Source: Candidatus Gastranaerophilales bacterium
GTDB taxonomy: Bacteria; Cyanobacteriota; Vampirovibrionia; Gastranaerophilales; Gastranaerophilaceae
Direction of reading: 5' to 3'
Assembly (NCBI GenBank): GCA_944324835.1
Contig: CALUXV010000011.1
Coordinates: 1 to 40,077 of the forward strand
Length of the DNA: 40,077 bases
The notes beneath the pieces are model-generated. The model worked only from the letters and a program-made list of their open reading frames with translations, did no database searches and was not told where the DNA came from. Shown in pieces: positions 1 to 18,307 of the stretch. A program made the position numbers and the translations under genes. Numbering within the stretch: position 1 is the first letter of the stretch; every line of letters starts with the position of its first letter.

Positions 1-58
1 GGAGTTTTTTTATTGCGAATTTATTTTATAAAGATTTTGTTTTATACATTATTTTTGC

Positions 59-64
59 TATTAT
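59..64 (+). promoter_or_regulatory. Extended -10 box, probable near-leaderless start
   Basis: TATTAT preceded by TGC (extended -10). A transcription start about 7 bases downstream would fall at or next to the ATG at 74, and no ribosome binding site is visible. Confidence 0.4.
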
Positions 65-73
65 TTATACTTG

Positions 74-817
74 ATGGTTACAAATGACGATTTAGCAATA
101 TTAAATATTGGTGAAATTAATCACATCAAGGATTGTGTTACAAGACAATTGTTTGAAAATAAAAAAGTTCTTGAAGTCGGCGGTGTTACTCCTGTAGATA
201 TAACAAGAAAATTGGGTGTTAAATCTTGGGCATGTGTAGATCCTGAAAGAGCAGATGAGAATAATAAAACTGATTTTTACAAACAATTCAAATCCTGTAT
301 AACAGATTTTTCTGCAGATGAAGGTTTTGATTTTATTTATTCAACAAATTGTTTTGAACATATAAGCAATTTAGAAGAATCTATTGCTCAAATGTATGAT
401 TTGCTTAAAACCGGCGGACGTTTGAGTGCTTTGATGGGGCCGATTTATTCTTCACATAAAGGACATCATACTTATTTAAGAACAGAAAAATATGGTTTAA
501 TTGATTTTAATAATATCAAACTAGAAAAATGGGGACATTTAATATATTCAGAATCTGAATTATATGAAAAGTTAGCAGAGAATTATGATGAAGAAACTTG
601 TAAATTACTAGTTAATCAAATAATGTATCGAAAAACCATAAACCGATTATTTTTTGACGATTATATTGATATTATTAATAAAAGTAAATTTAAAATAATT
701 GAATTGCGTGATTGGCATGAGTCACAATATCCGGATGCTAAAACATTAGACAAATTAAAAAAGTATAATAAAAAGAATTTTTCAACAGTTAGTATAAAAA
801 TAATTCTTGAAAAATAA
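74..817 (+). CDS. Class I SAM-dependent methyltransferase
   Basis: Predicted soluble methyltransferase of about 247 aa that transfers a methyl group from S-adenosylmethionine to an unknown acceptor. Seen: the SAM-binding motif I-like segment VLEVGG near residue 33, an acidic motif II region (CVDPERAD), and a C-terminal post-motif of the Methyltransf_11/23 kind (FEHISNLEE followed by LLKTGGRL), which is usual in small-molecule or sugar methyltransferases. I chose the ATG at 74 over the TTG at 71. There is no Shine-Dalgarno (SD) sequence, but a TGC-TATTAT extended -10 box ends 9 bases upstream. The gene faces a minus-strand gene across a hairpin terminator. The substrate cannot be told from the context, and the fold assignment is much firmer than any specific role. 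Confidence 0.8.
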   Translation: MVTNDDLAILNIGEINHIKDCVTRQLFENKKVLEVGGVTPVDITRKLGVKSWACVDPERADENNKTDFYKQFKSCITDFSADEGFDFIYSTNCFEHISNLEESIAQMYDLLKTGGRLSALMGPIYSSHKGHHTYLRTEKYGLIDFNNIKLEKWGHLIYSESELYEKLAENYDEETCKLLVNQIMYRKTINRLFFDDYIDIINKSKFKIIELRDWHESQYPDAKTLDKLKKYNKKNFSTVSIKIILEK

Positions 818-828
818 AAAACTAAAAA

Positions 829-850
829 GCCGCAGATTTTATTCTGCGGC
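829..850. terminator. Bidirectional intrinsic terminator
   Basis: Perfect 8-bp stem GCCGCAGA/TCTGCGGC (829-836 and 843-850) with a 6-base loop. It is flanked by an A-rich tract on the left and a T-rich tract on the right, so it can end transcription from both the methyltransferase (+) and the convergent repeat protein (-). Confidence 0.85.
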
Positions 851-871
851 TTATATTTTTTGTAAATGAAA

Positions 872-2473
872 TTATCTAGCCATAATATATTCGCCTTCTT
901 TTAATTTTACATTTGTTAATTCATTGTTCATATCTGGAACTACTGAATAGTATAAAGGTTGTGAAGTAGTCGGGTTGCCAACTTTTTGAACATCTAATGA
1001 ATAGAATTTAACATTATTTTGAAGAGTTTCCGGGTTATATGTTTCTACTCTTGCAACTCTATGTTCTTTGCCTTGATCATCAACCACTGTTACTTGATAA
1101 TATTGTGGATATGCTGCAACAACATCACCGTTCTTATCTCTTAGTTCTTGAGATGCTATTTTGTCTGTCCAGTATTCTGCGCCTTCAATATCATCTACGT
1201 ATACTTGATATCTTTGATATTTTTCTTGTTCTGCTTTAATTTGTTCTAATCTTTCTCTGTTTTGTGCTAATTCTTCTGGGGTTAAATCTCTTTCAACTTC
1301 TTTTTTACCTAATCCTAAGAATCTTGGTTTAGTTTCAGTAACTTTAGTTTTTTCTAATTCACGTGCTTCTTTATATAGAGCGAAATCATGACCTCTTAGA
1401 ATTTTAAGTTTTTCTTCAGTTGATTTTCCTGCAAGTAATGGATCATTTGCAATTTCTGCGGCTAATCTTTCTTCTGCTGTTAAATTTTCATCAACCACTG
1501 GTGTTTCATCTTTAACTTCAGCTGCTGTCGGAGTTTCTTTCTTTTCTTCAACTGGTGCTACCGGAGTTTTATCTTTAACTTCTGCAGTTGGAACTTCTTT
1601 CTTTTCTTCAGGAGCAGCTACCGGTGCTTCAACTGTTGTTTTTGTAAGTGCGCCAAGAGCAGGAACTTGAGCTGCTGGAGTATCATTTTTAGCTTGAGGT
1701 GTTACTGCATCTGGTTCCAGAGCTTCTTTTTTCTTTTGAGGTGCAGAATCAGTATCTCCAATTACAACTTCTTCTTTTGGTGTTGTAGTATCTGTAACAA
1801 CCGGAGTTTCTTCTTTCTTTTCTACTGCAGCTGTATCAGTTGGGTTAATAGCTTCATTTACAGTAGTTTCTTTCCCGTTTACAGTATATGATCCTGTTCT
1901 TACTTTTGATCCATCAGGGTATTCTGTTTCTGTAATGTCCCAAGTTACAACATCTTTAGGACCTTGTGGTTGTATTGGTTTTAATTTTAATTCTGGAAAT
2001 TTAGTTTCCGGAATTTTAAATGGAACCGGTTTTAGTTCTGGCATTTTCTTTTCTACAGGAGCAGGAGCCGGTTTTTCTTGTTTTTCTTCTTCTTTAAGAA
2101 CATAGCCTGCAGCATCTGCTAATCTTACGTAATCATCATAAGTAATAGCATATTGTTCACCGGCTTTCATTCTTGTAAATCTTGTTGAATAACCGTGTTC
2201 AGAAAATACATCAGTAAATTCGTTTCCTAAATTTCTTTTATCGTAATTTGAAAATTTATTTTTTTGACCATCTTTATTGTTATCTTCGAATATACCAGCT
2301 TCGATATCTTTGTTTAATCTATCCATATAGTCATAAGATACACCTGAATTTTTACCTGGTCTTGCTGTTAAAATGATTTCATGGCCTTCTTCTTTAATTT
2401 TATTGAAAGCTTCACGTCTTGCTTTGATTTCTTCAGGTGTTAAACCATTACCATTTCCATTAACTCTTGTCAT
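872..2473 (-). CDS. Pro/Glu/Lys-rich repeat protein, function unknown
   Basis: Not recognised. 533 aa from the ATG at 2473, which has a strong GGGGG ribosome site at 2482-2486; the longer open frame up to 2635 adds a weak non-conserved extension and is not used. The N-terminal ~130 residues are charged and look folded (LTPEEIKARREAF, SNYDKRNLGNEF). A central low-complexity region follows, rich in Pro, Glu, Lys, Thr and Val, with imperfect repeats of the type EEKKExPTAxEVKDxTPV. The C-terminal ~150 residues look globular again (YQVYVDDIEGAEYWTDKI). No signal peptide or membrane segment is seen. The region between the folded ends resembles a disordered linker or stalk. It converges with the methyltransferase and is divergent from the 46-aa gene at 2635. 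Confidence 0.75.
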   Translation of the reverse strand: MTRVNGNGNGLTPEEIKARREAFNKIKEEGHEIILTARPGKNSGVSYDYMDRLNKDIEAGIFEDNNKDGQKNKFSNYDKRNLGNEFTDVFSEHGYSTRFTRMKAGEQYAITYDDYVRLADAAGYVLKEEEKQEKPAPAPVEKKMPELKPVPFKIPETKFPELKLKPIQPQGPKDVVTWDITETEYPDGSKVRTGSYTVNGKETTVNEAINPTDTAAVEKKEETPVVTDTTTPKEEVVIGDTDSAPQKKKEALEPDAVTPQAKNDTPAAQVPALGALTKTTVEAPVAAPEEKKEVPTAEVKDKTPVAPVEEKKETPTAAEVKDETPVVDENLTAEERLAAEIANDPLLAGKSTEEKLKILRGHDFALYKEARELEKTKVTETKPRFLGLGKKEVERDLTPEELAQNRERLEQIKAEQEKYQRYQVYVDDIEGAEYWTDKIASQELRDKNGDVVAAYPQYYQVTVVDDQGKEHRVARVETYNPETLQNNVKFYSLDVQKVGNPTTSQPLYYSVVPDMNNELTNVKLKEGEYIMAR

Positions 2474-2634
2474 ATTAATATCCCCCAATTTAATATCCCG
2501 CTTACTTCTATATAAAGTTTTTTTCTTTTTCAAAATTGCCTTTTGTGTTAAGAAATGTAACAAAGCATTAACAAAAACTAAAGAAATAAACAAGCATGGC
2601 CGTTTATGGATTATGTGGATAGGGAGGTGTATCA

Positions 2635-2775
2635 ATGTTCAACAAATTAAAGAATGAAAAAGTTATTATCGATTTAGAAATACTAGTAAAAAATACGGAA
2701 AATTTAGATGAGGATATAAATTCTTATGCCGAATTTATGAAAGAAAGAATTCTTAGTGTTTCGGGGGTTAACTAA
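2635..2775 (+). CDS. Small 46-aa acidic protein
   Basis: Short gene starting with ATG at 2635 directly after a strong AGGGAGGTG ribosome binding site (2621-2629) and ending with TAA. The peptide begins MFNKLKNEKVIIDLEIL, is charged and probably helical, and has no membrane segment. I recognise no family. The near-perfect Shine-Dalgarno and its position opposite a minus-strand gene support real translation. It is followed closely by the lipoprotein gene, which has its own -10 box. Confidence 0.6.
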   Translation: MFNKLKNEKVIIDLEILVKNTENLDEDINSYAEFMKERILSVSGVN

Positions 2776-2789
2776 ATTCAAAAAAATGT

Positions 2790-2795
2790 TATAAT
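2790..2795 (+). promoter_or_regulatory. Consensus extended -10 box for the lipoprotein gene
   Basis: TGT-TATAAT, a perfect extended -10. The expected start site, 7 bases on, coincides with the ATG at 2802, which predicts a leaderless mRNA. No Shine-Dalgarno sequence is present. Confidence 0.55.
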
Positions 2796-2801
2796 ATTTA
2801 T

Positions 2802-3068
2802 ATGAAGAATAGATATTTAAGTATTATTTTAATTATCTGTTTAAGTATAGGTGCAATATCAGTTTGTACAGCTTGTAATGCAAAGAAAACATCAAATAAA
2901 ATTATAATTAGACATGAATCAACATATTCTAAATTAATGAAAAAGAAAGAGCCGCCATCTAATATTATTGATTTAGGAGATGATACACAGGTAAGTTTTG
3001 ACTATCATATAGGCCCAAAGGATATTATAGAGCCTAGTTTTAACCTTATAAAAATTGATTCCCCTTAA
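2802..3068 (+). CDS. Small predicted lipoprotein
   Basis: 88-aa protein with a basic start (MKNRY), a hydrophobic stretch at residues 6-21 and a Cys at about 25 in a CTAC context that could be a lipobox, although the -3 residue is Cys rather than the usual Leu. This suggests export and lipid anchoring. The mature part is short and polar (PPSNIIDLGDDTQVSF), with no recognised domain. The start ATG sits at the expected transcription start of a perfect TATAAT box. It lies 33 bases before the next gene. Function unknown. Confidence 0.65.
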   Translation: MKNRYLSIILIICLSIGAISVCTACNAKKTSNKIIIRHESTYSKLMKKKEPPSNIIDLGDDTQVSFDYHIGPKDIIEPSFNLIKIDSP

Positions 3069-3096
3069 TCGTTTTTTGTACTAAAATTATGTCATT

Positions 3097-3453
3097 ATGA
3101 ATGACAGACAGCTTGTATCCAGATTAATAATTCTTGTTATAACTGGTCAGATTCCTGTTCGACAGGCTCTGTTAAGTTTTCCGCAGGATACAAAAGATAA
3201 AAGTATTATAACTGCATATCATGCTCTTATTCATTATGAAGCAGATGAAGATTTGCGGGCGCAAGATTTTATGTACAAAGAAGAACAGGATGAATATTTG
3301 CAATTTTTGGCAGATACTTTATCAAAAAATAGAACTTTGCCTCAAAATATTATTAAAAGTTATAAAAACTATTATTCCGATGTCGCACTTCCTAAAGACA
3401 AAAGTATGCGGAATCTAATAAAAAAGCTGTGTAAATTTCTAAATATTAAATAG
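3097..3453 (+). CDS. Conserved-looking hypothetical protein, 118 aa
   Basis: Predicted soluble, mostly helical protein starting MNDRQLVSRLIILVITG; no motif allows a family call. The start ATG at 3097 lacks a Shine-Dalgarno, but TAAAAT at 3082-3087 is placed for a very short leader. The second frame open at 3221-3418 is a shadow. The 3' end overlaps the 3' end of the minus-strand rsmG by 8 bases, so no terminator separates the two convergent genes. The N-terminal segment is hydrophobic enough to be buried helix, but a membrane anchor is not convincing. Confidence 0.65.
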   Translation: MNDRQLVSRLIILVITGQIPVRQALLSFPQDTKDKSIITAYHALIHYEADEDLRAQDFMYKEEQDEYLQFLADTLSKNRTLPQNIIKSYKNYYSDVALPKDKSMRNLIKKLCKFLNIK

Positions 3454-4075
3454 CCTTGAATATAAGTAGTTTTCTTTCATATACTTCATCCAAAGGTAAT
3501 GTATAATCAAGAGTTTCGATAAATTGTAAACGATTCTTCTTTAATATATCTTTTGCATCTTCAATTTCGTCCATAGCACGTTTTGATTTGTAGGCTACAA
3601 AATATCCTTCTTTTTTTAGCAATGGAGCTGCATATTGTACAATTACACTCACTGTAGCAACTGCACGAGATGTTATTATATCAAATGTTTTATCATTAAT
3701 ATTTTCAGCTCTATTACATATTGTGTTTAAGTTGTTGATATTAAGTTCATTTTTTATTGATTCAATTGCAAATATTTTTTTTCTAATGCTATCTAAAGCT
3801 GTTACTTCAATATTTGGAAATTCAAGAGCTATTGGAATTGCCGGAAAACCTCCACCTGTCCCGATGTCTAACAGTGTATCGGGGATAATGTTGTACTTGT
3901 CAAAAAACAATTTTATTGCCAGAGAATCGTATATGTGTTTCTCGAATAAAAATTTTTCTTCATTTTTTGATATGAGATTAAGTTTTGCATTTTGATTTAA
4001 AAATGCATCTGAAAATTTTGAAAAATCATATTTAATATTCATTACTGCAGATTTCATTGAATTTTTCGGCTCCAA
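3446..4075 (-). CDS. rsmG: 16S rRNA (guanine-527-N7)-methyltransferase RsmG/GidB
   Basis: Class I methyltransferase that makes m7G527 in 16S rRNA in the small ribosomal subunit. Seen: the family core LLDIGTGGGFPAIPIAL (SAM motif I), VTALDS (motif II acid), and TSRAVATV followed by the KKEGYFVAYK segment typical of RsmG. Length (209 aa) matches the family. Three starts are possible (4075, 4057, 4042). The one at 4057 (MKSAV) has GGAG 12 bases upstream, and the one at 4042 gives a more typical short overlap with the upstream NTPase gene. The gene overlaps that NTPase/TPR gene by 11-44 bases depending on the start, so the two are very likely translationally coupled. Confidence 0.93.
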   Translation of the reverse strand: MEPKNSMKSAVMNIKYDFSKFSDAFLNQNAKLNLISKNEEKFLFEKHIYDSLAIKLFFDKYNIIPDTLLDIGTGGGFPAIPIALEFPNIEVTALDSIRKKIFAIESIKNELNINNLNTICNRAENINDKTFDIITSRAVATVSVIVQYAAPLLKKEGYFVAYKSKRAMDEIEDAKDILKKNRLQFIETLDYTLPLDEVYERKLLIFKAI

Positions 4076-6233
4076 TCAGTTTTTTTATGTTTTCTATTCG
4101 TTTGCCTATTTTACTTTTGTTATTTTGATTAAATTTATCTTTAACCAGTTTGTAAACATATATATATTCTTTTAATGCCTCTTCGAGTTTATCAGTATTT
4201 GAGAAAAAATCGCCAAGATGTAAGCTTGCATTCGCAATTGCAAAAATATCGTTAGATTTTTCTGCAGCTTGCTTTGACTTTAATAAGTATGAATGTGCTT
4301 CGATTAAATTTGTTTTTACAATAATTTTAGCAATATTTGATGCTGTATAGTACATGCCGTAACTATTTGAGTTTTTTTCATCATATTTATATGCTTCCCT
4401 AAAATTAGTTAATGCTTGATCTTTATCATTAATATCAAGATAGTAATCTCCCAGGTTAGAATATGATAAAGACTTATACCTGCAATTATCAGCAGATACA
4501 TCTATGCATTTTCTGTAATATCTAACAGCGGTTTCAGCGTCATCGTTTTCATCTGAAAGAATTGCGAATTTGAAATACAATTCTGCTAAGTTCTCAATAT
4601 TTGGCTCACGTTCTGATAAAATTACGGCTTTGTTATATAATTCATAAGCTTTATTTTTAGCTGCTAAAGATATGTAAATATTTGCAAGCAGCGTATATGC
4701 ATTAATTGTAATTTTTGTTTCAGTAGCTTCAGAAATGATTTCTGACAAAATATTTATTGCATCATTTGTTTTATAAGATTGATAATATATTTTGGCAATG
4801 CGTAATTTGATAAGATTTGCATTATAATTATCATTTTTTTCAAGGTAATATTTTACTAAATAATTTGCATAATGAAGGGCATATTTCCAATTTCCTAGAA
4901 TTTCATAGATTTTTAATAATTCCCGATAAATTGTGTATTTATCTATATCTTCATGCTCAAGTAATGTATTATAGATTTTTAATGCATCATTGTAGTTGTA
5001 AGCAGCAACAAAATTATCTGCAGCTATTAACAAGTCATTTACTGATTTATATTGGCAATCAGTTTTTTCAGTGTTAGTTTGACATTCTGTATTATGCGGA
5101 GAGATTATGCTTGTATGATATTCTATTTCTGAACGCATTGTTTGCCGAGAAATTTGTATCAATCTTTCTCCTGGATTTAATGGAAGTTGAGAATTATAGA
5201 ATTTAACAATATTTTGTCTTATAGTAAATTCCGTATTTTGGTCAAGTTCATTTAATAGTGCTTCTCGGAAATAATTGTTTATGATAAATAAATTTCCTAC
5301 TGCTTTTATATATAAGTTAATTTTTAAATAATCGATGGAATGAATATCATATGCTTCAAAATAATCTAAGACTTGTGAATCTATAGGATGGCGAATGAGG
5401 GAAATTATTGATAAAAGCTTGAAACAATCATCTGGCAGCATACTTATATATGCTTTAGCAAGAAATTTATCAAAGGACATTGCCGAGTTTGTATAGGCAA
5501 CTAAAAAGTCACTGACTGATAAAGCTTTAATGTTGAGGATTTTAGTTGTAATTTCTGTATAAAAATAGTATCCTCGTGTAATTTTATAAAGTTCATCTAA
5601 AATTCTTGAAGTAGCTTTAATATCTTTATCGTGTAAATATTTTTCAAAAATTGGACGTGAAAAGGCTCTTAAAATAACTTTAGTATACTGAATATTCTCA
5701 GGAATAGTAGATGTATCAAATGTTTTAGACGTTATTACTATTTTAATTTTTTCATCAATTGATAAATTCCATAAAAAATTTAATATATCCGGTGCATTTT
5801 CAACATTTACTAAATCAAAATTATATAGTGAAATAACAATATTTGAAGTCGTTTCAGAGAAACAATTTGATATTTTTTCTTGGAAAGATTTAGTTTGTGA
5901 AAATTTATAAATTAGTGTATCATCAGAGTTGATTTCTAAGAATTGTTTCCATAATACTAATAAAATATCATCAAGAGTAGATGAAGGGGAGCATTCAAAT
6001 TTTAAAGAAAGAACATCTTTATCAATATAATTCATTACATGGTTGGTAATTTGGTATTTACCAGTTCCGAAAAATCCCGTGATTAATAGTAGATTTTCTG
6101 TCTTTTGAAAGAATCCGTAAACTTTACTTAACACCCCTTCATGGTTTTCTAAAATGTATTTATCCACTTCTGAGGATTGTAAAGAAACAAAATCATTGTA
6201 ACTTGAATTAATAGATAAAAAATTCTTTGCCAT
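4032..6233 (-). CDS. STAND-like AAA NTPase with C-terminal TPR repeats
   Basis: 733-aa protein. Residues ~1-330 look like a P-loop NTPase of the AAA/STAND kind: the loop GFFGTGKYQ near residue 55, a Walker-B-like strand ending in Asp (NIVISLYNFD), and a winged-helix-like region. Residues ~390-720 hold repeated TPR-type helices (for example YNKAVILSEREPN and LGDYYLDINDKDQALTNF). STAND proteins commonly act as signalling switches or scaffolds, with TPRs as the partner-sensing part. The P-loop has Tyr where Ser/Thr follows the Lys, so nucleotide hydrolysis may be weakened. No membrane segment is seen. It lies directly upstream of and overlaps rsmG; nothing in the sequence shows a shared role. 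The start at 6233 has no clear ribosome site. Confidence 0.75.
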   Translation of the reverse strand: MAKNFLSINSSYNDFVSLQSSEVDKYILENHEGVLSKVYGFFQKTENLLLITGFFGTGKYQITNHVMNYIDKDVLSLKFECSPSSTLDDILLVLWKQFLEINSDDTLIYKFSQTKSFQEKISNCFSETTSNIVISLYNFDLVNVENAPDILNFLWNLSIDEKIKIVITSKTFDTSTIPENIQYTKVILRAFSRPIFEKYLHDKDIKATSRILDELYKITRGYYFYTEITTKILNIKALSVSDFLVAYTNSAMSFDKFLAKAYISMLPDDCFKLLSIISLIRHPIDSQVLDYFEAYDIHSIDYLKINLYIKAVGNLFIINNYFREALLNELDQNTEFTIRQNIVKFYNSQLPLNPGERLIQISRQTMRSEIEYHTSIISPHNTECQTNTEKTDCQYKSVNDLLIAADNFVAAYNYNDALKIYNTLLEHEDIDKYTIYRELLKIYEILGNWKYALHYANYLVKYYLEKNDNYNANLIKLRIAKIYYQSYKTNDAINILSEIISEATETKITINAYTLLANIYISLAAKNKAYELYNKAVILSEREPNIENLAELYFKFAILSDENDDAETAVRYYRKCIDVSADNCRYKSLSYSNLGDYYLDINDKDQALTNFREAYKYDEKNSNSYGMYYTASNIAKIIVKTNLIEAHSYLLKSKQAAEKSNDIFAIANASLHLGDFFSNTDKLEEALKEYIYVYKLVKDKFNQNNKSKIGKRIENIKKLIGAEKFNEICSNEY

Positions 6234-6348
6234 ACTTAGTCCATATTAAAATATTTTGTTACTTTTTGCAAATAATAAGTATATTTGATGATTGCAATAT
6301 CTTCTTTTTAATAGTAAAATAAGTTAAAAGTGGGAGATAGGGTTAATA

Positions 6349-6453
6349 ATGGAATTTTTTAGAAAACATCAACGTGCTATAGTTTTATTAATTGCAATTA
6401 CTTTTATTGCTTGGACTTTCGGTTTGATGTTGCTGCCATTATTGGCAAAATAG
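6349..6453 (+). CDS. 34-aa single-pass membrane peptide
   Basis: Short gene with ATG at 6349 and a GGGAGATAGGG ribosome site just upstream. The peptide starts MEFFRKHQRAIVLLIAITF: a basic head followed by one membrane helix (about residues 10-32), ending PLLAK. This resembles the cytoplasmic head plus anchor of SurA/PpiD-like foldases, but there is no chaperone domain behind it. It ends 12 bases before the murein hydrolase gene. Inference: a free-standing membrane microprotein acting in envelope assembly with its neighbours. Confidence 0.6.
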   Translation: MEFFRKHQRAIVLLIAITFIAWTFGLMLLPLLAK

Positions 6454-6459
6454 TATAAA
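6454..6459 (+). promoter_or_regulatory. -10 box abutting the murein hydrolase start
   Basis: TATAAA(AT) begins right after the TAG of the 34-aa gene. Its expected start site is the ATG at 6466, so the hydrolase may have its own leaderless transcript in addition to read-through from upstream. Confidence 0.4.
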
Positions 6460-6465
6460 ATAAGT

Positions 6466-7611
6466 ATGAATTTAAGAAAGATTTTAGTATTAATAACATG
6501 CATTTTGTTCTCATGCGGAGGGCATAATTTTTGCTATGCAAATAACAGTTCCTACTCAACCAACGTTAAAAAAATTCAAACTATCAGACGCCAACAAGCA
6601 CAAGCAAGAGAAAAGGCCCGTCATTACAGGATTTTAGAAAATCTTGAAACTAATAAATTATATAAAAACCAAAGAAAGCTTGTTAATACTCAAAATTCAT
6701 TAAAAGCATCCCAGGATGCTTATACCCGGAAACAACAAGAACTTACTTCGATGGAAGCTAGTTTAAGACAGGCAAATATCGAATTTATGGAACTTGATAA
6801 CGATTTAAAAAATCGTATAAGACAAATTTTTAAAAGCCAGAGAACTGGCTTTTTCCAATTACTTTTAACTTCGTCTGATATTAATATGTTAATTGATAGA
6901 TTGCATTTTGAAAGTATAGTTGTCAAAGAAGATTATAAACGTCTTCAAAAAGCACGGGAAAAAGCAGCGCAAATCCTTGCACTAAGGGCACAAATTGAAG
7001 CCCAAAAACGTAGTCTTGCTAAAACTATTAATGACATAAATTGTCAACAAAAAATTATTCAAAATAATATTGCACAAAATCAGGAAATGATTCATAAGTT
7101 AAAAACTAACAGAAGTTATTATGAACGTTCGGAAAGAGAACTGGCAAGACAATCGGCAAGTATTGAAGCAATGATTTCAAATATTAAGCCGAATTCTGGT
7201 TCGAAAGTCGCAGTTACGACCGGTTTTATTAAACCTATTTCAGGACCTATTACGTCACCTTTTGGATATAGAATACACCCTATATTCAAAAGTAGAATAT
7301 TCCATTCAGGTATTGATATAGGCGGGCCAAATGGAGGTGCAATAAGAGCATCAAATACGGGCCGTGTAATATATGCCGGATGGTATGGCGGATATGGGCA
7401 AGTTGTAATTCTGGATCATGGTATAGTACGTGGACAGCCAATTACAACGTTGTATGCGCATATGAGTTCTATATCTGTCCGAAAAGGACAAGTTGTTCAA
7501 AAAGGGCAACAAGTAGGAAGAGAAGGTTCTACTGGTTATAGCACAGGACCACATTGCCACTTTGAGGTTCGTGTTAACGGGCAGCCGCGAAATCCTCTAA
7601 ACTATATTTAA
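6466..7611 (+). CDS. Murein hydrolase activator/M23 endopeptidase, EnvC/NlpD type
   Basis: 381-aa exported protein. Signal peptide at residues 1-25 (cleavage likely after CYA), then a long coiled coil (about 30-235, rich in Gln, Lys, Arg and Glu), then an M23 LytM domain (about 255-380). Zinc-site residues are present: H280 and D284 (HSGID), H332 (YAHMS), H363 and H365 (HCHFEV). An intact site suggests a real peptidoglycan endopeptidase rather than an inactive EnvC-type activator. Coiled coil plus LytM is the layout of division-site hydrolase regulators. It is followed after 15 bases by the OstA/LptD-like gene, forming an envelope-building cluster. Confidence 0.9.
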   Translation: MNLRKILVLITCILFSCGGHNFCYANNSSYSTNVKKIQTIRRQQAQAREKARHYRILENLETNKLYKNQRKLVNTQNSLKASQDAYTRKQQELTSMEASLRQANIEFMELDNDLKNRIRQIFKSQRTGFFQLLLTSSDINMLIDRLHFESIVVKEDYKRLQKAREKAAQILALRAQIEAQKRSLAKTINDINCQQKIIQNNIAQNQEMIHKLKTNRSYYERSERELARQSASIEAMISNIKPNSGSKVAVTTGFIKPISGPITSPFGYRIHPIFKSRIFHSGIDIGGPNGGAIRASNTGRVIYAGWYGGYGQVVILDHGIVRGQPITTLYAHMSSISVRKGQVVQKGQQVGREGSTGYSTGPHCHFEVRVNGQPRNPLNYI

Positions 7612-7626
7612 TATAAGGGAAAAAAG

Positions 7627-9771: not shown

Positions 9772-10393
9772 TTTAAGCGTTGAAGAAATCACACAACAAA
9801 TTATTAAAATCGGCAAAGTAATGGGGGATAAAGATTATACTCCAGGATATTCTGGTAATATTTCTGCAAGAATTGGCGATAAAATTTTAATTACTGTTGC
9901 TGGTTCTGCAAATGCACATTTAAAAGAAAGCGATTTTGTATTAATGGACTTTAATGGAAATTCATTAACTCCAAATAAACGTCCCTCAAGTGAAAAAAAA
10001 TTACATATTGAATTCTATCAACAAAGAGCGGATGTAAATTTTATTATACATACTCACTCCCCTTACTTAAGCAGTTTTGCTTCTGCAGGTAAAGATTTAT
10101 TATCACCGGTTATGGCTGAAAATATTTATTATTTTAAAGGAATTCCGTTAGCAGAATATGGATTGCCTTCATCACAAGAATTAGTAACAAATACTGCGAA
10201 GTATTTTAAAGATTATGATGCAATATTAATGGCAAATCATGGTTTTATAGTCGGTAGCAGAACGTTAAAAGATGCTTATTTAAAGCTTGAACTTGCGGAA
10301 CAGTATGCTCAGGTTGTATTAAATACATACATTCTTGGCGGACCAAAACCTTTAACATATAAACAGGCTCAAGAAATTTTGGATTTGCGATAA
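9761..10393 (+). CDS. Class II aldolase/adducin family protein (FucA-type)
   Basis: 210-aa zinc enzyme of the fuculose/ribulose-phosphate aldolase family. Seen: GYSGNISAR (phosphate-binding region), the catalytic Glu E78, and zinc ligands H97, H99 (IHTHSPY) and H160 (NHGFIVG). The spacing equals that of E. coli FucA (E73, H92, H94, H155). The ATG at 9761 is preferred over the TTG at 9758 because AAAGGAAG sits about 6 bases upstream. It overlaps the 3' end of the OstA/LptD-like gene by 11 bases, so it is coupled to an envelope gene. The sugar-phosphate substrate cannot be read from sequence; methylthioribulose-phosphate dehydratase is an alternative within the family. Confidence 0.88.
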   Translation: MTSNLSVEEITQQIIKIGKVMGDKDYTPGYSGNISARIGDKILITVAGSANAHLKESDFVLMDFNGNSLTPNKRPSSEKKLHIEFYQQRADVNFIIHTHSPYLSSFASAGKDLLSPVMAENIYYFKGIPLAEYGLPSSQELVTNTAKYFKDYDAILMANHGFIVGSRTLKDAYLKLELAEQYAQVVLNTYILGGPKPLTYKQAQEILDLR

Positions 10394-10441
10394 CAAACTA
10401 AAAATTGTCTTATCAAATTATAACAAAATACTTTAAAATGG

Positions 10442-10447
10442 TATTAA
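10442..10447 (+). promoter_or_regulatory. Possible extended -10 box before the 363-aa gene
   Basis: TGG-TATTAA lies so that its start site falls on the ATG at 10454. A second candidate, TAAAAT at 10434-10439, would give an 8-base leader. No ribosome site is visible. Confidence 0.35.
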
Positions 10448-10453
10448 TGTATT

Positions 10454-11545
10454 ATGTTAGTATCCTGTATTAGAAATAATATTTCATTTAGTCAAAACTT
10501 AAATCATAAAATGCATGATTTAAGTGAGTTTTCTGCAGACAAGGCTGTTATGATTCATATGACAGATTATTTACCGGTAAATGGTGAAATATTATCTACT
10601 AAAAATGTTTCAAAGGATAAGAAAGGGCTTCGTAAACCAAGAAACACTGTTCATTTCGCATTCAACCATGTTGTTACTCCAAATAGTATTGGTTTCAACT
10701 GGAACAATAAACCTATAGGTATAATTATTCCGTTTAATAAAGCTTTAGAAGTTAACCCTAAAGAAAACATAATTGGCGGCGAACCTAGTGATTTCTATAT
10801 AAAAAATAAAGTAAAACTCCCTCAAGGAACGGTAATTGTTCGAAAATCTAAAAAACTGCCATCCGGAAAATTGAGAGTTATAAATGCAGAAACAATTAAT
10901 GCAATGAAAAATACTAAAGGGATAAAAGTTGTTGAAACATCTGATAATGTAAGAGATATTACTAATAAATGTATTGAAAAAATGGGATATACAAGACTTG
11001 ATAACCTTTATAGCGAAGCAACCGGACGTAACGAGGATTTAAAATACATTTCCGGAAAAATAATTAATAGAACAATTAATGCAAATCAAAAAATTAGTGT
11101 CGCCTGGAGTAAAATGGCAGATAATATTGGTTTTTCTATTTATAAAAATCACCAAACATCTCCATTTGGGCGTTCAGAATTTTTAATTGATAGTGTTGAT
11201 ATCCTAGCTCGTAATACTAATAAATGGAATTCTACAATTAGTGTTTATAATATATTCAGCAAAAAAGATGAATATATTGACATTGATTATAAACAGGCAT
11301 TTTTAGGTGTTATAGATAGTATAAATAAATCATTACCTCCAAATACAGAACTTAGCTATGATATTAACAGGTTTAAAAATAATATTAAAGAATCTGTAAC
11401 GCCAAAAGATGCTCTAGATAAACTTGCTAAAGAACAAAAAATTAAGCCTATGGGAGAAGATATAGGCCATGTTCGTAAGAATACATCACCCAATAAAGTT
11501 CTCCAAATAATTAATGATATTGTTGATTTATATAGTATAAATTAG
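10454..11545 (+). CDS. Unrecognised 363-aa protein
   Basis: No family recognised. The N-terminus (MLVSCIRNNISFSQN) is short and not a signal peptide. Residues ~30-140 form a compact region with notable segments: VMIHMTDYLPVNGEIL, RNTVHFAFNHVV and IGIIIPFNKALEV, which looks like an alternating beta/alpha enzyme fold with invariant-looking His/Asn residues. The C-terminal half is more helical and ends DIVDLYSIN. No membrane segments. The start at 10454 has no ribosome site but is spaced for a leaderless mRNA. Its 3' end overlaps the convergent AsmA-like gene by 4 bases. It may be transcribed apart from the aldolase gene 60 bases upstream. Confidence 0.65.
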   Translation: MLVSCIRNNISFSQNLNHKMHDLSEFSADKAVMIHMTDYLPVNGEILSTKNVSKDKKGLRKPRNTVHFAFNHVVTPNSIGFNWNNKPIGIIIPFNKALEVNPKENIIGGEPSDFYIKNKVKLPQGTVIVRKSKKLPSGKLRVINAETINAMKNTKGIKVVETSDNVRDITNKCIEKMGYTRLDNLYSEATGRNEDLKYISGKIINRTINANQKISVAWSKMADNIGFSIYKNHQTSPFGRSEFLIDSVDILARNTNKWNSTISVYNIFSKKDEYIDIDYKQAFLGVIDSINKSLPPNTELSYDINRFKNNIKESVTPKDALDKLAKEQKIKPMGEDIGHVRKNTSPNKVLQIINDIVDLYSIN

Positions 11546-14500
11546 TATGGTAAATTTTCTATAAATTTGGGAATAGAAATATTTGATTGTGGTATTTCAC
11601 GTGTTTTATATTCTTTTTCTGTTTCTGATATCCACATAAATGTTCTGACAGAAGAATTTGCTTCTGCAGGTCCTGAAATTACGGCTTTAAATTCTTTTGT
11701 ATTTTTTTGAGGTAGCGGCGGTATTTTTTCTATTCCGTCTTGAAGAATTCGATACTCTTCAGTTTCTTCACCTTTTAAAGCAATTCTAAATTTATCCATC
11801 GTCATTGTTCCAAAGCTACCTAGTGATGAAACCATCGTGTTAGACAAACGTCCAAGAACGGTTACATTTGCAATATTTGACATTAATCCATAATGGCCTG
11901 ATATATACATACTCATATTCGGGCCTACCATTTTTATGTTTTTGATATTGATAACATCATTATTAATTGTTAATGCACCATATAATGATTTAAATAATCC
12001 TGTATCTTTTGATGATATCGCACGTGTAAATACTGCAAGAGATGTTTTTGCCATATTATCAGCAATAATATTTTGTGCATATAATAAATGCTCAACTTTA
12101 CCAAGTATGCTCATTTGGCCATCTCTTATCATAAATTTTAAAAAGCCTTTATCAATTAATTTTGATTTGATTGAGCTATTAATTTCAAAATCAAAATCAA
12201 GTTTCCCACAGATATTTTCCTTTAAATTAGTTAGTGACTTCATAACTGGTCCAGCACTAATATTGCGTCCTTGAATAAATGCGGAGTATCTACCTGATAA
12301 CAAATTCATGTTAATTTTGCCGGCAATTTTGCCATTATACATATTCGCAGTTAGAGAATGTACGTCAAGAAAATTCTCCTTTAATTTAAAAGAAGAGTTT
12401 AAATCGGAAAGGATTAATTGCTCAATAGGTGTTTCTATGAAAACGTTTTCGGAGAACATTGTTCCATTCTCAACTGTAATATTTATTCCTGATTCTTTTA
12501 ACATTGCAAGTGATAATGATAAATTGTCAAGATTAAGTTCTTTTGATTTTAAGTTTAATGATTTTACTTTAATATTTTTAGATAATTTTGCTTCTGCAGT
12601 TCCGACAATTCCCATAGAACTATCAAATACTCGTACATTTGTACAATCAAAATTTATAATATTTTTAGTTAAAGCTGCTGATATATTTTTGGCGGTTAAA
12701 CATCCGTATTTGTCAGATAATATTGGAAGTCTTAAGTTCCCAATTATTTCAGGAGAAGATAATTCTCCGTTTATAACCAAATTCCCTGTGATTTTTGCTA
12801 AATAATGATATATATTTACTGGACAAGTTTTTAGGATATTAACTTTTATATTTTTTAGTATCGGCCGTTTTATATTTTCTAATTCTCCGGTTATTATGCA
12901 TATTTTTTGAGAATTTGTGAGGTTTTTCTTTAGGTTTTGTGTAAATACTCCTTTATAAGAATTTACACTGCAATCATTAATTTTAAAAATGTTATCTGAA
13001 TATTTTGCTGATAAATTTAAAATCACGGGTTGTGCAAATGAAAATTTAGCACAAGATTTTTGTTGTAGGATTTGTAAATTAATGTTTTGAATAGCTTTAT
13101 CACCGTTTAGTTCTATAAATATAGGGTAAACGGCATCAAGTTCTGCAATGTTAAATACTCCATTAGGATTAGCAAAACCGGAACCTTTAAAAGAAAATGT
13201 TGATGTATTGTTATAATCAAGAACCTTACCCCACATATCTATCTTAGTATTTCCTGAATAAATTCTAAATGTATCAATATTGATATTTGAATCTGTTAAA
13301 TTTGCCCTTATTGAAGGGATTGTAATTGGCTGCATTTTGGGCTGGTTTGCTATAAAATATGTAATAACCATCTCACCGGCATGTTTACTTAGCGATTTAA
13401 AAGATAAATTTGAAAAACGGAATCGTGTTTTATCATATATACCTGATACATCTGAAAGCTGTGCTTCAACTTTTGGTACAAAATCTTTATATGAACCGGA
13501 TATATTCGCAATTACAGATATTATACCGTTATTTATCTTACAATTTTTATACATTAAGTTATGGAGTTTAAAATTATTTACAATAAAATTGAGATTCAAT
13601 TTATTTGAAACAATATCACCGGTAATAGTAACGGGTGCATTATTAATAAAAGCACTGGCGGTTTTTATTGCAATTTTGTTTCCTGAAAAATCAATATCTG
13701 AATTTAAACGATTTATTGCGAATTTATCTGTTATGATATTTGCATTTTTTAGTTTTAAAATACCATTGGATTTAATATGTTTCATATTCCCTTTTAAGAC
13801 AAAATCAGAATAAAACGTTCCGTCAATATCACGAATTAATGCTAAATTAGAAATATCAGAGAAAATTCTTGCAAGATATAATATATCCTTTAAGTTAATT
13901 TCATCCGATTTGACATTTAAATTAAAAGATGGGTTATCTGAATTAGTAAAAAATCCGTTTACTGCTATTTTATTAATTTTATTTGTATAAATAACAGAAG
14001 AAACAGAGGTTTTATTCCCCAAAAGAGTAAAATCAGCGTAACTGTATGGAAGTTTTACACCATTCATGAAAAATGTAAGTTTATCAATACTAAGTGTTCC
14101 ATCAGTTTTAATTTCTTTATCATGTTTTTTTATTTTTAAATCTGCAACAATATCTGCAGTTGCTTGTTTTTCTTTTATTTTTTGAAGGAAGTCAATTAAG
14201 TCAATTTTTTTATTTGTAAATTCTAGCCCGTCACAAGAACACGATATATCATAATTAATGTGTTTTATATTATTAATTAATAGTTTACCTCTAGTTATTA
14301 GTTTTATATGTTTGTTAGGTCTAAAATCAGAAATAATAAGTTCTTTACCTGTAAAAATATAATCCTGATTTGTATAATCTGTAATAACAAAATTATATTT
14401 CTTTAAGCGAATTTTAGAGATTACGTTTAATTTATTCAAGGGTTTAATATGATTTTGAACAACTAAATTTCCGGATTTATCAACAACTAATTTAAAATCG

Positions 14501-14811
14501 GCGTTATCTATTCGTATATCTTTTATCTTAAACTCTTTTCTTAACATTGGAATGAGTGCAAGTTTAATTTTTATACCTGACAGTTTGGCTAATTGTTTAT
14601 TATTGTCATAGTAAATATCAAAATTAGGAGATTTGATAATTATCGTAGGTGCAATTTTTAATGTTAATTTTTCGGTATTTACTGTCAGACCGTATTGTGT
14701 TTTCATTTGTTGTTTTAATAGTGGAATAAATTTATTTGCATTAAAAGGTATAAAGCAAAAAATTATACCAATAATAACTAATACTAATATAGATACCAAT
14801 ATTTTTTTCAT
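11542..14811 (-). CDS. AsmA-like inner-membrane-anchored envelope protein
   Basis: 1089 aa with one N-terminal membrane helix (residues 4-22) and a long periplasmic part made of repeated beta-rich segments. The N-terminal block NFDIYYDNNKQLAKLSGIKI followed by IKDIRIDNADFKLVVDKSGN is characteristic of AsmA family proteins, and the C-terminal part (NNDVINIKNIKMVGPNMSMY, then GHYGLMSNIANVTVLGRL) matches AsmA-like C-terminal regions. AsmA, TamB and YhdP relatives are thought to bridge inner and outer membranes and move phospholipids. This fits a diderm envelope and the OstA/LptD-like gene nearby. The start has AAGGG about 10 bases upstream. Confidence 0.82.
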   Translation of the reverse strand: MKKILVSILVLVIIGIIFCFIPFNANKFIPLLKQQMKTQYGLTVNTEKLTLKIAPTIIIKSPNFDIYYDNNKQLAKLSGIKIKLALIPMLRKEFKIKDIRIDNADFKLVVDKSGNLVVQNHIKPLNKLNVISKIRLKKYNFVITDYTNQDYIFTGKELIISDFRPNKHIKLITRGKLLINNIKHINYDISCSCDGLEFTNKKIDLIDFLQKIKEKQATADIVADLKIKKHDKEIKTDGTLSIDKLTFFMNGVKLPYSYADFTLLGNKTSVSSVIYTNKINKIAVNGFFTNSDNPSFNLNVKSDEINLKDILYLARIFSDISNLALIRDIDGTFYSDFVLKGNMKHIKSNGILKLKNANIITDKFAINRLNSDIDFSGNKIAIKTASAFINNAPVTITGDIVSNKLNLNFIVNNFKLHNLMYKNCKINNGIISVIANISGSYKDFVPKVEAQLSDVSGIYDKTRFRFSNLSFKSLSKHAGEMVITYFIANQPKMQPITIPSIRANLTDSNINIDTFRIYSGNTKIDMWGKVLDYNNTSTFSFKGSGFANPNGVFNIAELDAVYPIFIELNGDKAIQNINLQILQQKSCAKFSFAQPVILNLSAKYSDNIFKINDCSVNSYKGVFTQNLKKNLTNSQKICIITGELENIKRPILKNIKVNILKTCPVNIYHYLAKITGNLVINGELSSPEIIGNLRLPILSDKYGCLTAKNISAALTKNIINFDCTNVRVFDSSMGIVGTAEAKLSKNIKVKSLNLKSKELNLDNLSLSLAMLKESGINITVENGTMFSENVFIETPIEQLILSDLNSSFKLKENFLDVHSLTANMYNGKIAGKINMNLLSGRYSAFIQGRNISAGPVMKSLTNLKENICGKLDFDFEINSSIKSKLIDKGFLKFMIRDGQMSILGKVEHLLYAQNIIADNMAKTSLAVFTRAISSKDTGLFKSLYGALTINNDVINIKNIKMVGPNMSMYISGHYGLMSNIANVTVLGRLSNTMVSSLGSFGTMTMDKFRIALKGEETEEYRILQDGIEKIPPLPQKNTKEFKAVISGPAEANSSVRTFMWISETEKEYKTREIPQSNISIPKFIENLPY

Positions 14812-14884
14812 ATACCAAATACCCTTAAAAGCCTAGCTACTCTCCCTACATATTTTATAATTAAAATAATTAAGAAACAAGAGA

Positions 14885-15679
14885 TTAATTAAGTTTCCAC
14901 TTTCTTTTTAAAGAGGTTAGTGTACCATCATTAACCATATTAGTAACATTCATATTAACAATTTTCAAAAGAGAACGGGATTCTGGTTCTTTTCTAATAC
15001 CAATTGCATATAATTCTCTTGTATAGCGTTTAGGCAAAAGTTTAACAGAATGATCAGTTAGAGCATAATGCCTTAGAATTGTGTCGTCAGATGTGATTGC
15101 CGCAATTCTGCCGGCTTTTAAAGCATTATATGCGTCATGGTAGGTCTTATATCCAAGAACATTTACGGAAGGGAGAAGCATTCTTATATTTTTTTCTGCG
15201 GTTGAACCATATAATACTCCAACATTCTTTTCATCTAAATCTGCAAGTGTTTGAATTGAACTCCCAGCCCGAGTTAGAACAGCTTGCCCTGCAACAAAAT
15301 AAGGTTTAGAAAAACTAATGATAGCCATTCTTTCAGGCGTTCGTGTCATTGTTGCGATAACCATATCTACTTTTTCAACGTTTAATAGATATAATCTATT
15401 AGATGGTGTTACCTGTACAAATTTTATTTTATTAGGGTCATGTAAAATATCTTTTGCAATATATTTGGCGATATCTATATCAAAACCGATATTTTTTCCA
15501 TTTTCAATATAACCAAATGGACGTGTATCTGTTTTTACTCCAACAATTATATAGCCTCTTTCTTTTATAATTTTAAGTAAATCTTCTTCAACAGAATTTG
15601 CTTTATCAAGCTTATAGTCAACAGCATAAACTATACCAAGAACAATTGTTATTACAATAATCCAAAATTTATCACTCAT
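14885..15679 (-). CDS. Family 3 extracellular solute-binding protein
   Basis: 264 aa from MSDKFW; the frame reads up to 15781, but that extension is Tyr/His-rich and not family-like. An N-terminal membrane helix (about 5-22) lacks a clear cleavage site, so the protein may stay anchored. The rest is a periplasmic binding protein type 2 fold of the amino-acid-binding family: IIVGVKTDTRPFGY, GFDIDIAKYIAKDIL, VDMVIATMTRTPERM and a C-terminal NDGTLTSLKRKWKL. The MTRTPER segment is the ligand-binding Arg loop of this family. No permease or ATPase gene is adjacent, so it is an orphan receptor here. The ligand is probably an amino acid, but this is inferred from the family only. Confidence 0.85.
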   Translation of the reverse strand: MSDKFWIIVITIVLGIVYAVDYKLDKANSVEEDLLKIIKERGYIIVGVKTDTRPFGYIENGKNIGFDIDIAKYIAKDILHDPNKIKFVQVTPSNRLYLLNVEKVDMVIATMTRTPERMAIISFSKPYFVAGQAVLTRAGSSIQTLADLDEKNVGVLYGSTAEKNIRMLLPSVNVLGYKTYHDAYNALKAGRIAAITSDDTILRHYALTDHSVKLLPKRYTRELYAIGIRKEPESRSLLKIVNMNVTNMVNDGTLTSLKRKWKLN

Positions 15680-15771
15680 AAAGTATATTAAATAATGAAT
15701 ATGACCTTTTGTAAATACATTATAAAAATGGTTATTATTGTGATATTCTATATATAAATGAGGGTAATAAA

Positions 15772-16170
15772 ATGGATGCAATTAAACATTTTGAACAAGG
15801 TTTTTCTTGTGCAGAAAGTCTTGTATGTGAAGGAATTGATTTAGGAATATGTGAAAAATCTCTATTATCTGCGGCTACAGCTTTTTCTGGAGGATTAAGT
15901 TCAGGTTGCTTATGTGGTGCTATTTCTGGATCATTAATGGTATTAAGTTCTCTTTACGGAAAGAATAATAAATTTGGAAATGAAGTAAAGGCAAAAAAAA
16001 TTGCTTCAGAATTTGTTAAAAGGTTTAAAGAAAAATTCCCCGCAACTTGTTGTCGTGTCTTATCTCGGAATTTTGAATTTCATTCTCCGGAAAGACGTGA
16101 ACATTGTAAACAGATTGTAGAATTCTGTTCACAAATAATGAAAGAGCTGGCATCTTATGAAAGAGTATAA
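15772..16170 (+). CDS. C_GCAxxG_C_C family redox protein
   Basis: 132-aa small soluble protein. Seen: an early FSCAES Cys, the signature SGCLCGAISG (residues ~43-52, the C-GCAxxG part), then CC in ATCCRVL and a later EHCKQIVEFC, giving the Cys pattern of this family. Members are thought to be redox-active or metal-binding and are common in anaerobes; no defined reaction is known. GAGGG lies 8 bases before the ATG. The 3' end overlaps the next gene by 14 bases, so it is co-translated with the formyltransferase. Confidence 0.88.
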   Translation: MDAIKHFEQGFSCAESLVCEGIDLGICEKSLLSAATAFSGGLSSGCLCGAISGSLMVLSSLYGKNNKFGNEVKAKKIASEFVKRFKEKFPATCCRVLSRNFEFHSPERREHCKQIVEFCSQIMKELASYERV

Positions 16171-17089
16171 AAAACGTATTTTATTTGTAGGAATGCCTGA
16201 TATGGCATTTGTATGTCTTGAAGCATGTTATCAAGAAGGAATTAATATAGTTGGTGTAATGGGGCCGAAACCAACGCACCATATGTTTAAACCATTTAAA
16301 CAGTTTGTTGAGAATAAGAAATTAAACTTTATATATTATGATGATTTAAAATCTCCGGAATTAATTGATACGATAAAAAAACTTAATATTGATATGGCTG
16401 TTGTTTGTTCATTTAATTATAAGATTCCGGAAGTTCTTTTAAATGCGGTAAAAGATGGATTTATTAACCTGCATCCTTCACTTTTGCCGGAGTATCGCGG
16501 CTCTAATCCTTATTCTAGAGTAATTATGAACAATGAAAAAGTCACAGGTGTAACTCTTCACCACATGAGTAAAGAATTTGATAAAGGGGATATAATTCTA
16601 CAGTTAAAGTGTCCGATAGAAACAAATGAAACAATGGGAACGTTGTTTAATAAAACTAATGATATATGTATACAGTTACTATTGTCTGCGTTAAATGAAT
16701 ATGAAAAAAGACCCCTTCCATCTATACCTCAGATAGATGGAGATTATCCTGTTGCAGATGCAATTACTGATAAGGAAATGTTTCTTGACTACAATAAGTC
16801 GGCAGTTGAGCTTGAACGTTTGGTCAGAGCCTTAAATCCATTTATTCTTGCATCAACATTCTTCAGAAGGGTACTTGTAAAAGTAATGAAGTGTTCTGTT
16901 GTAAAAAAACATTATTCTTCAGATATTCCCAACGGTTCAATTGTGGATATCAGTAATAATCAAATTGTTATAAAAACTGCTAAAGACTGCTTATCACTCG
17001 ATGTAATGCAGTTCGGAAGTTACTTTGTAGGTGATAGCAAAGATTTTATAAAATACGTAAATCCCCAAAAAGGAGAAAGGTTTTATTAA
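16157..17089 (+). CDS. Formyltransferase-family protein (Fmt/ArnA type)
   Basis: 310 aa. Uses 10-formyl-tetrahydrofolate in known relatives. Seen: the catalytic triad N104, H106 and D142 in INLHPSLLPEYRG and FDKGD, the hallmark SLLPxxRG loop, and a TGVTLHHM strand that is closer to sugar formyltransferases such as ArnA than to methionyl-tRNA formyltransferase. A C-terminal domain (LERLVRALNPF onwards, about residues 210-300) resembles the OB-like Fmt C-domain. It sits between a C_GCAxxG protein and an endonuclease-IV-like TIM barrel, each overlapping by 14 or 1 bases, and not beside def/priA as typical fmt. An amino-sugar or other amine acceptor is plausible; tRNA formylation is not excluded. 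Confidence 0.8.
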   Translation: MKEYKKRILFVGMPDMAFVCLEACYQEGINIVGVMGPKPTHHMFKPFKQFVENKKLNFIYYDDLKSPELIDTIKKLNIDMAVVCSFNYKIPEVLLNAVKDGFINLHPSLLPEYRGSNPYSRVIMNNEKVTGVTLHHMSKEFDKGDIILQLKCPIETNETMGTLFNKTNDICIQLLLSALNEYEKRPLPSIPQIDGDYPVADAITDKEMFLDYNKSAVELERLVRALNPFILASTFFRRVLVKVMKCSVVKKHYSSDIPNGSIVDISNNQIVIKTAKDCLSLDVMQFGSYFVGDSKDFIKYVNPQKGERFY

Positions 17090-17913
17090 TGGATAAACTA
17101 AATTTTTTAACAGCTGGAATGCCTTTAAGTACAGGAAATAAAGGGTACCAACGAGCTTTTGAAATTCTAGATGACATGAATTTAGACGGACTCGAATTAG
17201 AGTTTGTAAGGGGGGTAAGAATTAGTGATAAAAGCCGTGAAGTAGTTAAAAATACTCCTATGATTAAAACAATTCATGCTCCGTTTTATATTAACTTAAA
17301 TGCCAGAGAAACAGAAAAAGTTGAAGCAAGTGTTCAAAGAATAGTAGAAACTGCAGAAGTTGCACATGATGTAGGAGCATTTTCAATAACTTATCATGCC
17401 GGCTATTATCTAAATATGGATAAAGATAAAGTTTATAATTCTATAAAAAAACAAACTAAAATTATTACTGATATACTATCAAAATCCGGTATTAAAGTAT
17501 GGATTCGCCCTGAAACAACAGGGAAAGGAACACAATGGGGGGATTTAGAAGAAATTATTAACCTATCAAAAGAATTTGAGTATGTGCTCCCATGTGTTGA
17601 TTTCTCACATTTACATGCAAGGTATAACGGTATTGTGAATACATATGATGAATTTGCACAAATATTTGAAAAAATTGGAAGAGAACTGGAAGAAAAAAAA
17701 CCTCTAGAAAATTTTCATGCTCATATGGCTGGTATAGAATATACTTCTAAGGGAGAAAGACAACATTTAAACTTTGAAGAATCAGATTTTAATTATAAAG
17801 ATTTGCTAAAAGCCTTTAAAGATTTCGAAGTAAAAGGTGCAATAGTTTGTGAAAGCCCTAATATTGAAACTGATGCTAAACTAATTAGTGATTATTATCA
17901 TTCTATAATCTAA
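17089..17913 (+). CDS. Endonuclease IV-like / xylose isomerase-like TIM barrel
   Basis: 274-aa metal-dependent TIM barrel of the AP endonuclease 2 superfamily, which includes deoxyribonuclease IV and sugar isomerases/epimerases. Candidate metal ligands occur in order: His in TIHAPFY, His in TYHAGYY, Glu in RPETT, Asp and His in CVDFSHLHAR, His in FHAHMAG and Glu in VCESPN. The DRH step found in classical Nfo is replaced by GERQHLNF, so the third metal site may differ. The ATG overlaps the stop codon of the formyltransferase (TAATG). DNA repair or sugar-phosphate isomerisation are both possible; the gene pairing with a formyltransferase mildly favours a metabolic role. Confidence 0.75.
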   Translation: MDKLNFLTAGMPLSTGNKGYQRAFEILDDMNLDGLELEFVRGVRISDKSREVVKNTPMIKTIHAPFYINLNARETEKVEASVQRIVETAEVAHDVGAFSITYHAGYYLNMDKDKVYNSIKKQTKIITDILSKSGIKVWIRPETTGKGTQWGDLEEIINLSKEFEYVLPCVDFSHLHARYNGIVNTYDEFAQIFEKIGRELEEKKPLENFHAHMAGIEYTSKGERQHLNFEESDFNYKDLLKAFKDFEVKGAIVCESPNIETDAKLISDYYHSII

Positions 17914-17954
17914 AGCATTACTCTAAAGTCTAATTGTTTTTAATATATTTTAAG

Positions 17955-17960
17955 TATAAT
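17955..17960 (+). promoter_or_regulatory. TATAAT -10 box before the HAD-like gene
   Basis: Perfect TATAAT. The predicted start is about 17967, leaving roughly a 5-base leader before the ATG at 17972, with no ribosome site. Confidence 0.5.
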
Positions 17961-17971
17961 ATTAACATGTT

Positions 17972-18307
17972 ATGTTAAAAAAACTTATAAGTATAGATTT
18001 AGATGGCGTTTTAAATAACTATGATGGTTTGTACAATCATTGTAAAATTCCACCTTTACGAGATGGTGCATTTGAATTTATAAAAAAACTTTCTGAAGAA
18101 TATAATGTAGAACTTTTTACTGTTCGTAATAAGAAACTCGTAATTAAATGGTTAAAAGAAAACAATTTAAGTGAATATATTTCTAATATTACAAATATAA
18201 AGAATCCAATGTCTTCTGTTTTTCTTGATGACAGAGCAATTAATTTCAATGGTGATTTCGCAGCTGCTTACCAAAGTATAAAAGATTTTAAACCGCACTG
18301 GAAATAA
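17972..18307 (+). CDS. Small HAD-fold phosphatase-like protein
   Basis: 111 aa. The catalytic motif I of haloacid dehalogenase enzymes is intact (D9 and D11 in IDLDGVL), motif II Thr is likely in FTVRN, and a late acidic motif (FLDDRAINF) matches motif IV. No large cap domain fits in this length, so the substrate is probably bulky (nucleic acid or protein) or the protein needs a partner. This is the compact type seen in phage and bacterial HAD-like hydrolases. It abuts the convergent exonuclease gene with no spacer. Confidence 0.75.
   Translation: MLKKLISIDLDGVLNNYDGLYNHCKIPPLRDGAFEFIKKLSEEYNVELFTVRNKKLVIKWLKENNLSEYISNITNIKNPMSSVFLDDRAINFNGDFAAAYQSIKDFKPHWK

Follow-up and report, generated by a model that had tools for sequence, protein, structure and literature searches.

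Genes whose mRNAs carry no leader are a described class in bacteria. Such leaderless genes were found in 207 of 953 bacterial genomes by way of a TANNNT element ~12 bp upstream (Zheng et al. 2011, PMC3160421), and the TA-led genes of that survey have the first T of TANNNT at −12, have no Shine-Dalgarno (SD) site, and make up a minority of genes. Here we report the same arrangement in the genome of a Candidatus Gastranaerophilales bacterium that contains the window, a stretch of 40,077 nucleotides (contig C11): a −10 box that ends exactly 6 bases before the ATG of a minority of genes, most of them without an SD site. A first T at −12 corresponds to this 6-base spacer, and the strong TG before the box that the survey describes for Lactococcus (PMC3160421) is like the TGn found here. 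The leaderless transcripts of Mycobacterium likewise have no leader; they were studied by RNA sequencing (PMC3898074, PMC4633059), whereas those proposed here are predicted from sequence, and from an AT-rich TGnTATAAT box.

Cyanobacteria are not among the groups listed with leaderless genes by Zheng et al., according to whom many cyanobacterial genomes use neither SD-led nor leaderless genes (PMC3160421), and the StartLink paper gives their initiation signals as weak or unknown (PMC9581028). We found no paper on leaderless genes in Melainabacteria, nor, among the titles listed, any on such genes in this lineage; the literature searched included no bioRxiv preprints and only a minority of subscription journals. 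The genes proposed here would thus be of an already described kind, from a lineage for which we found no report of them.

Box spacing at gene starts

The source genome (G000; 1.98 Mb in 97 contigs) is that of what we take to be a gut melainabacterium, a non-photosynthetic member of the Cyanobacteriota. Our sample consists of 20 stretches (400 kb) and the window, 440 kb in all or 22% of the genome, with a GC content of 32%. Genes were called with a home-made coding-potential finder, and ATG starts were picked without SD or −10 information, which gave 352 ATG-initiated genes, 211 of them non-operon and 141 operon-internal. We defined a strict −10 box as TA[TA]NAT and the spacer as the bases between the end of the box and the ATG.

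The strict box occurs at a spacer of exactly 6 before 23 of the 211 non-operon starts, whereas the counts at spacers 0–5 and 8–29 average 3.68 and do not exceed 8 (Poisson P = 1e-11, with spacings treated as independent). No spacer-6 peak precedes 14,663 non-start ATGs, where the counts are flat (83 to 142 over spacers 0–15, 123 at 6), nor 2205 non-start intergenic ATGs (8 to 35 per spacer, 23 at 6). The peak is robust to the choice of starts, five ways of choosing them giving 19–23 genes (19/180 to 23/229), and it is specific to ATG: a spacer-6 box precedes 30 of 565 candidate ATGs, two of 80 GTGs, and two of 266 TTGs. The excess over background suggests that ~9% of non-operon genes may be leaderless. 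An Escherichia coli negative control held 28 non-operon genes in 50 kb, too few to be informative.

Chance would produce TATAAT-like strings near any ATG if AT-rich intergenic DNA supplied them, and this account does hold for the loose range of 6–15 bases over which a sequence-only reading of the window had proposed six leaderless genes. TANNNT lies 6–15 bases upstream of 678 of the 2205 non-start intergenic ATGs (31%) and of 79 of the 211 non-operon starts; for the stricter TA[TA]NAT the counts are 191 and 41, respectively. The 6–15-base criterion was dropped as a test because, with TANNNT, so many intergenic ATGs that are not starts also satisfy it, and for the same reason six sites in one window are weak evidence alone. 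Chance accounts neither for a peak at exactly 6 that is missing before non-start ATGs nor for its conservation across the family (see below), and two AT-rich genomes of the same order, G046 and G035, likewise lack it, in samples that are small (63 and 45 genes). As a general account chance is refuted, and we give it very little credence, although it may still apply to individual sites in the window, namely those at 17972 or 74.

Shine-Dalgarno sites and promoter elements

A box at spacer 6 or 7 is found before 28 of the 211 non-operon genes and five of the 141 operon genes. By our SD test, a crude 4-mer match within 20 bases that produces some false positives (for instance in L134–L136, orthologues of the window gene that starts at 10454), SD is absent in 24 of the 28 non-operon genes with the box and in 57 of the 183 without it (P = 5e-8, Fisher's test). 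SD motifs peak apart from the box, ~5–11 bases before the ATG, and the two separate peaks indicate that both modes of initiation coexist. The sequence-only reading had credited genes inside operons with clear SD sites; SD-like sites are indeed visible at 22429, 22874, 36045, 36891, and 38882, but over the sampled part of the genome SD is scarcely more frequent in operon genes (66% of 141) than in non-operon genes (62%, 130/211), and a general SD enrichment of operon genes is not borne out.

T occupies position −1 in 22 of the 23 spacer-6 genes of the window genome, compared with 94 of the 183 genes without a box, and in 56 of 67 boxes pooled from four genomes (G000, G016, G013, and G039); a T at −1 is what RNA polymerase is expected to favour just before its start site. 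The same 67 pooled boxes include 31 with TGn. A TTGACA-like −35 element lies at promoter distance in 13% of them when at least five of six bases must match (3% in shuffles) and in 52% when four suffice (26% in shuffles). Together, T at −1, TGn, and the −35 elements mark the box as a promoter. Boxes at 15–29 bases are mostly accompanied by SD (37 with, 18 without), as for ordinary leadered promoters. At one locus (L017:9290–9328) a 39-base divergent spacer separates a NUDIX-type gene from a sigma-70-family (SigF/FliA-like) gene, with a box at 6 from each ATG; it is presumably a very compact pair of leaderless promoters.

The box could instead be a signal of the mRNA, a non-SD, AT-rich ribosome-binding or enhancer element of the Bacteroidetes/FCB type, with transcription starting further upstream. 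Such a signal would account for the absence of SD and the closeness to the ATG, in a genome that is AT-rich (32% GC). It would be expected irrespective of promoter elements and operon position, whereas few operon genes have the box and, in radA, it goes with loci where no gene ends just upstream (see below). TGn and the −35 elements sit upstream of the box at promoter distances, T at −1 fits start selection by RNA polymerase, and the divergent genes at L017 fit two boxes, each at 6 from its ATG, into 39 shared bases. We consider an mRNA-level signal improbable.

Very likely, a minority of transcription units have a promoter of the sigma-70 type that is fused to their start codon, and so give rise to leaderless mRNAs. 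The −10 box, often TGn-extended, ends 6 (sometimes 7) bases before the ATG. For the transcript end and the route of translation we infer the following: given this spacing, RNA polymerase would start at the A of the ATG or within one base of it, and the resulting mRNA would be translated from its 5′-terminal AUG without SD, most likely by a 70S or IF2-assisted route. Both routes have been described for leaderless mRNAs in other bacteria.

The box at radA

As a conserved test gene we used radA, whose start is set by a TIGR00416 match from residue 1. Among the 80 RadA loci kept of the 295 found (L021–L100), TA[TA]NAT lies at a spacer of exactly 6 from the homologous ATG in 26, or in 27 of 81 when the window genome's own copy is added; no other spacing has a box in more than four of the 80 loci, and an SD-like string is present in six. 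On a tree of the 81 RadA proteins, box state (27 rows) needs five changes, compared with ~23 in shuffles, a comparison that bears on the clustering of box state only. The RadA of the window genome is 95% identical (best segment) to that of L021, with which it is paired on the tree (support 96/76).

Among loci whose flank is long enough, a frame of at least 80 codons, co-directional with radA, ends no more than 15 bases upstream of it in one of 25 box-bearing loci and in 41 of 53 loci without a box. This contrast indicates that a box-bearing radA is the first gene of its unit and that the box is gone where radA stands behind an adjoining gene.

An SD-like string is missing in 37 of the 41 loci without a box that have a frame ending just upstream. 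This suggests that radA, where it follows an adjoining frame with neither box nor SD, may be translated by coupling or reinitiation.

Distribution across the order and phylum

Families are labelled f1, f2, and so on, f1 being the family of the window and apparently the main family of Gastranaerophilales. Matches to TGNTATAAT-N6-ATG and to its N10 counterpart were counted in the same 58 genomes, 35 of them f1, with the reversed motif as a control. The f1 genomes contain 663 N6 matches (46 reversed) and 175 N10 matches (92 reversed), with N6 above N10 in 34 of the 35 and equal to it in one. N6 also outnumbers N10 in f6 (36 vs. 11, four genomes), f7 (16 vs. 5, three genomes), f5 (7 vs. 2, one genome), and f3 (61 vs. 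49, 10 genomes); the counts are 3 and 6 in f2 and 5 and 10 in f4 (two genomes each), and G057, from another family of the class, has zero matches of either kind. In a sample of 292 genomes, all 130 from f1 (seven to 52 matches each) exceed the reversed control (zero to five). The 156 genomes of the phylum that lie outside the class show no clear excess (zero to nine matches, controls up to eight), and five f9 genomes of the same class have 18 matches in total vs. 11 reversed.

Gene-based profiles of genome stretches bear out the motif counts in part, with a spacer-6 peak in G013 (f1; 11/118 vs. 1.96) and G039 (f6; 10/91 vs. 1.29). G046 (f3), G035 (f2), G280 (f9), and, from outside the class, G142 have none; these samples and that of a further genome without a peak, G045, hold 45 to 117 non-operon genes each. 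G142 also differs from the window genome in SD use: SD-like strings precede 30 of its 117 non-operon starts and it has no leaderless peak, compared with SD in 130 of 211 plus the peak.

By these counts the spacer-6 signal is family-wide. Enrichment of the box beyond the window, which the sequence-only reading had named as a check, is thus confirmed, as a sharp, ATG-specific peak at spacer 6 that is anticorrelated with SD. Statistics and conservation establish the position of the box and its promoter nature, in that it is position-specific, ATG-specific, SD-avoiding, and promoter-like at a fixed spacing across the family.

Gastranaerophilales, in the sense of the window's family and at least one sister family, have probably gained leaderless initiation within the Cyanobacteriota. 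It would be a stable genome-wide trait of about a tenth of non-operon genes, with a fixed 6-base spacing that individual genes retain across deep divergence and give up on moving into an operon, as in radA; other members of the phylum, which are presumably photosynthetic for the most part, would be without it. Several points weigh against leaderless initiation. The starts come from our own simple gene finder and from 22% of the genome only; the Poisson test assumes that spacings are independent; and an SD-like string also occurs in four of the 28 box genes. The peak is weak in one f1 genome (G016; 5/109 vs. 1.68, P = 0.03) and missing in G045 (f7), of the same order. Among the six proposed sites, one fails outright and two are undecided.

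If leaderless initiation is real here, an uncultured gut clade joins the users of leaderless mRNAs, from a phylum that is not among the users listed in the earlier survey (PMC3160421). Gene finders that look for SD may misplace starts in these genomes. Since individual genes conserve the spacing, operon settings do away with it, and the sister families sampled are without it, the order would offer a natural series for studying how promoters fuse to start codons and lose that state.

The six proposed sites

All six ATGs proposed from the window are preceded by a −10-like string and by no evident SD, as had been claimed; the range of 6–15 bases was loose, and the spacings differ (Table 1).

Table 1. 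Candidate start sites in the window and an associated small open reading frame
Position	Strand	Feature	Gene	Spacing or remark
2787..2804	+	Extended −10 TGTTATAAT (TG 2787–2788, TATAAT 2790–2795) before ATG 2802	88-aa protein	Spacer 6
10439..10456	+	Extended −10-like TGGTATTAA, TGG-TATTAA (10442–10447), before ATG 10454	363-aa protein	Spacer 6
3082..3099	+	TAAAAT (3082–3087) before ATG 3097	118-aa protein	Spacer 9, no TGn
56..76	+	TGCTATTAT, TGC-TATTAT (59–64)	Methyltransferase-like	6 before in-frame TTG 71, 9 before ATG 74
17955..17974	+	TATAAT (17955–17960) before ATG 17972	HAD-like	Spacer 11; 6 from ATG 17967
6454..6468	+	TATAAA at 6 and overlapping TAAAAT at 4 before ATG 6466	M23 peptidase	Rejected
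6349..6453	+	Conserved small open reading frame (MEFFRKHQ...LLAK)	34-aa protein	Upstream of M23 peptidase gene in 30/30 M23 loci

Leaderless starts are well supported by conservation at two of the sites, 2802 and 10454. Gene 2802 has TGnTATAAT-N6-ATG in all eight genus loci, the window included, and was also matched in the whole-genome pattern search. In gene 10454, TGnTATTAA or TGnTATTTA lies 6–7 bases before the ATG in seven of seven orthologous loci (L131–L137, the window included), in which the proteins outside the window are 53%–73% identical; the box was not seen in seven further, more distant matched loci. Its final A in place of the usual T keeps this gene out of the 23 strict spacer-6 matches. 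The 363-aa protein (10454–11545) belongs to no recognised family, and among the 38 genomes searched its matches lie within the genus only. Several congeners carry more distant second copies of it.

The proposal for 3097 finds support in congeners, but the box of the window strain lies 2 bases farther from the ATG. Seven other genus loci have a TA[GA]AAT-type box at spacer 7, compared with 9 in the window, so that the gene would be leaderless in the genus and perhaps have a leader of ~3 bases here; 12 loci from other genera give a mixed picture.

Sites 74 and 17972 are undecided as leaderless starts. For gene 74, none of five congeners has a box at 6, and four of the five have an SD-like site before a TTG; two loci from two other genera (L287 and L288) have a box at 6 before an ATG. 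At 17972, the ATG at 17967 is out of frame and reads M-L-C-stop, three codons; a transcript starting there would leave a 5-base leader before 17972. This arrangement is not kept in homologues, several of which show SD-like sites.

At 6466, the M23 peptidase gene very likely stands second in a small operon, its translation following the stop of the 34-aa frame through coupling or reinitiation. This frame is present upstream in all 30 M23 loci fetched, which come from several families of the order. The M23 ATG follows its stop by 1 base in five of the six other genus loci, by 10 in the sixth (L102, with TATAAA at spacer 4), and by 12 in the window. The TATAAA at 6 in the window strain is a point for an extra internal promoter, which is possible; the conserved frame upstream and the 1-base gap in five of six congeners, which leaves no room for a box, led us to reject a leaderless promoter at 6466. 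The small protein is probably a membrane protein, and no Pfam or NCBIfam family reached the cut-off for it.

Elsewhere in the window, positions 21224–21480 on the minus strand match the large bacterial signal recognition particle (SRP) RNA (Rfam RF01854, 82 bits).

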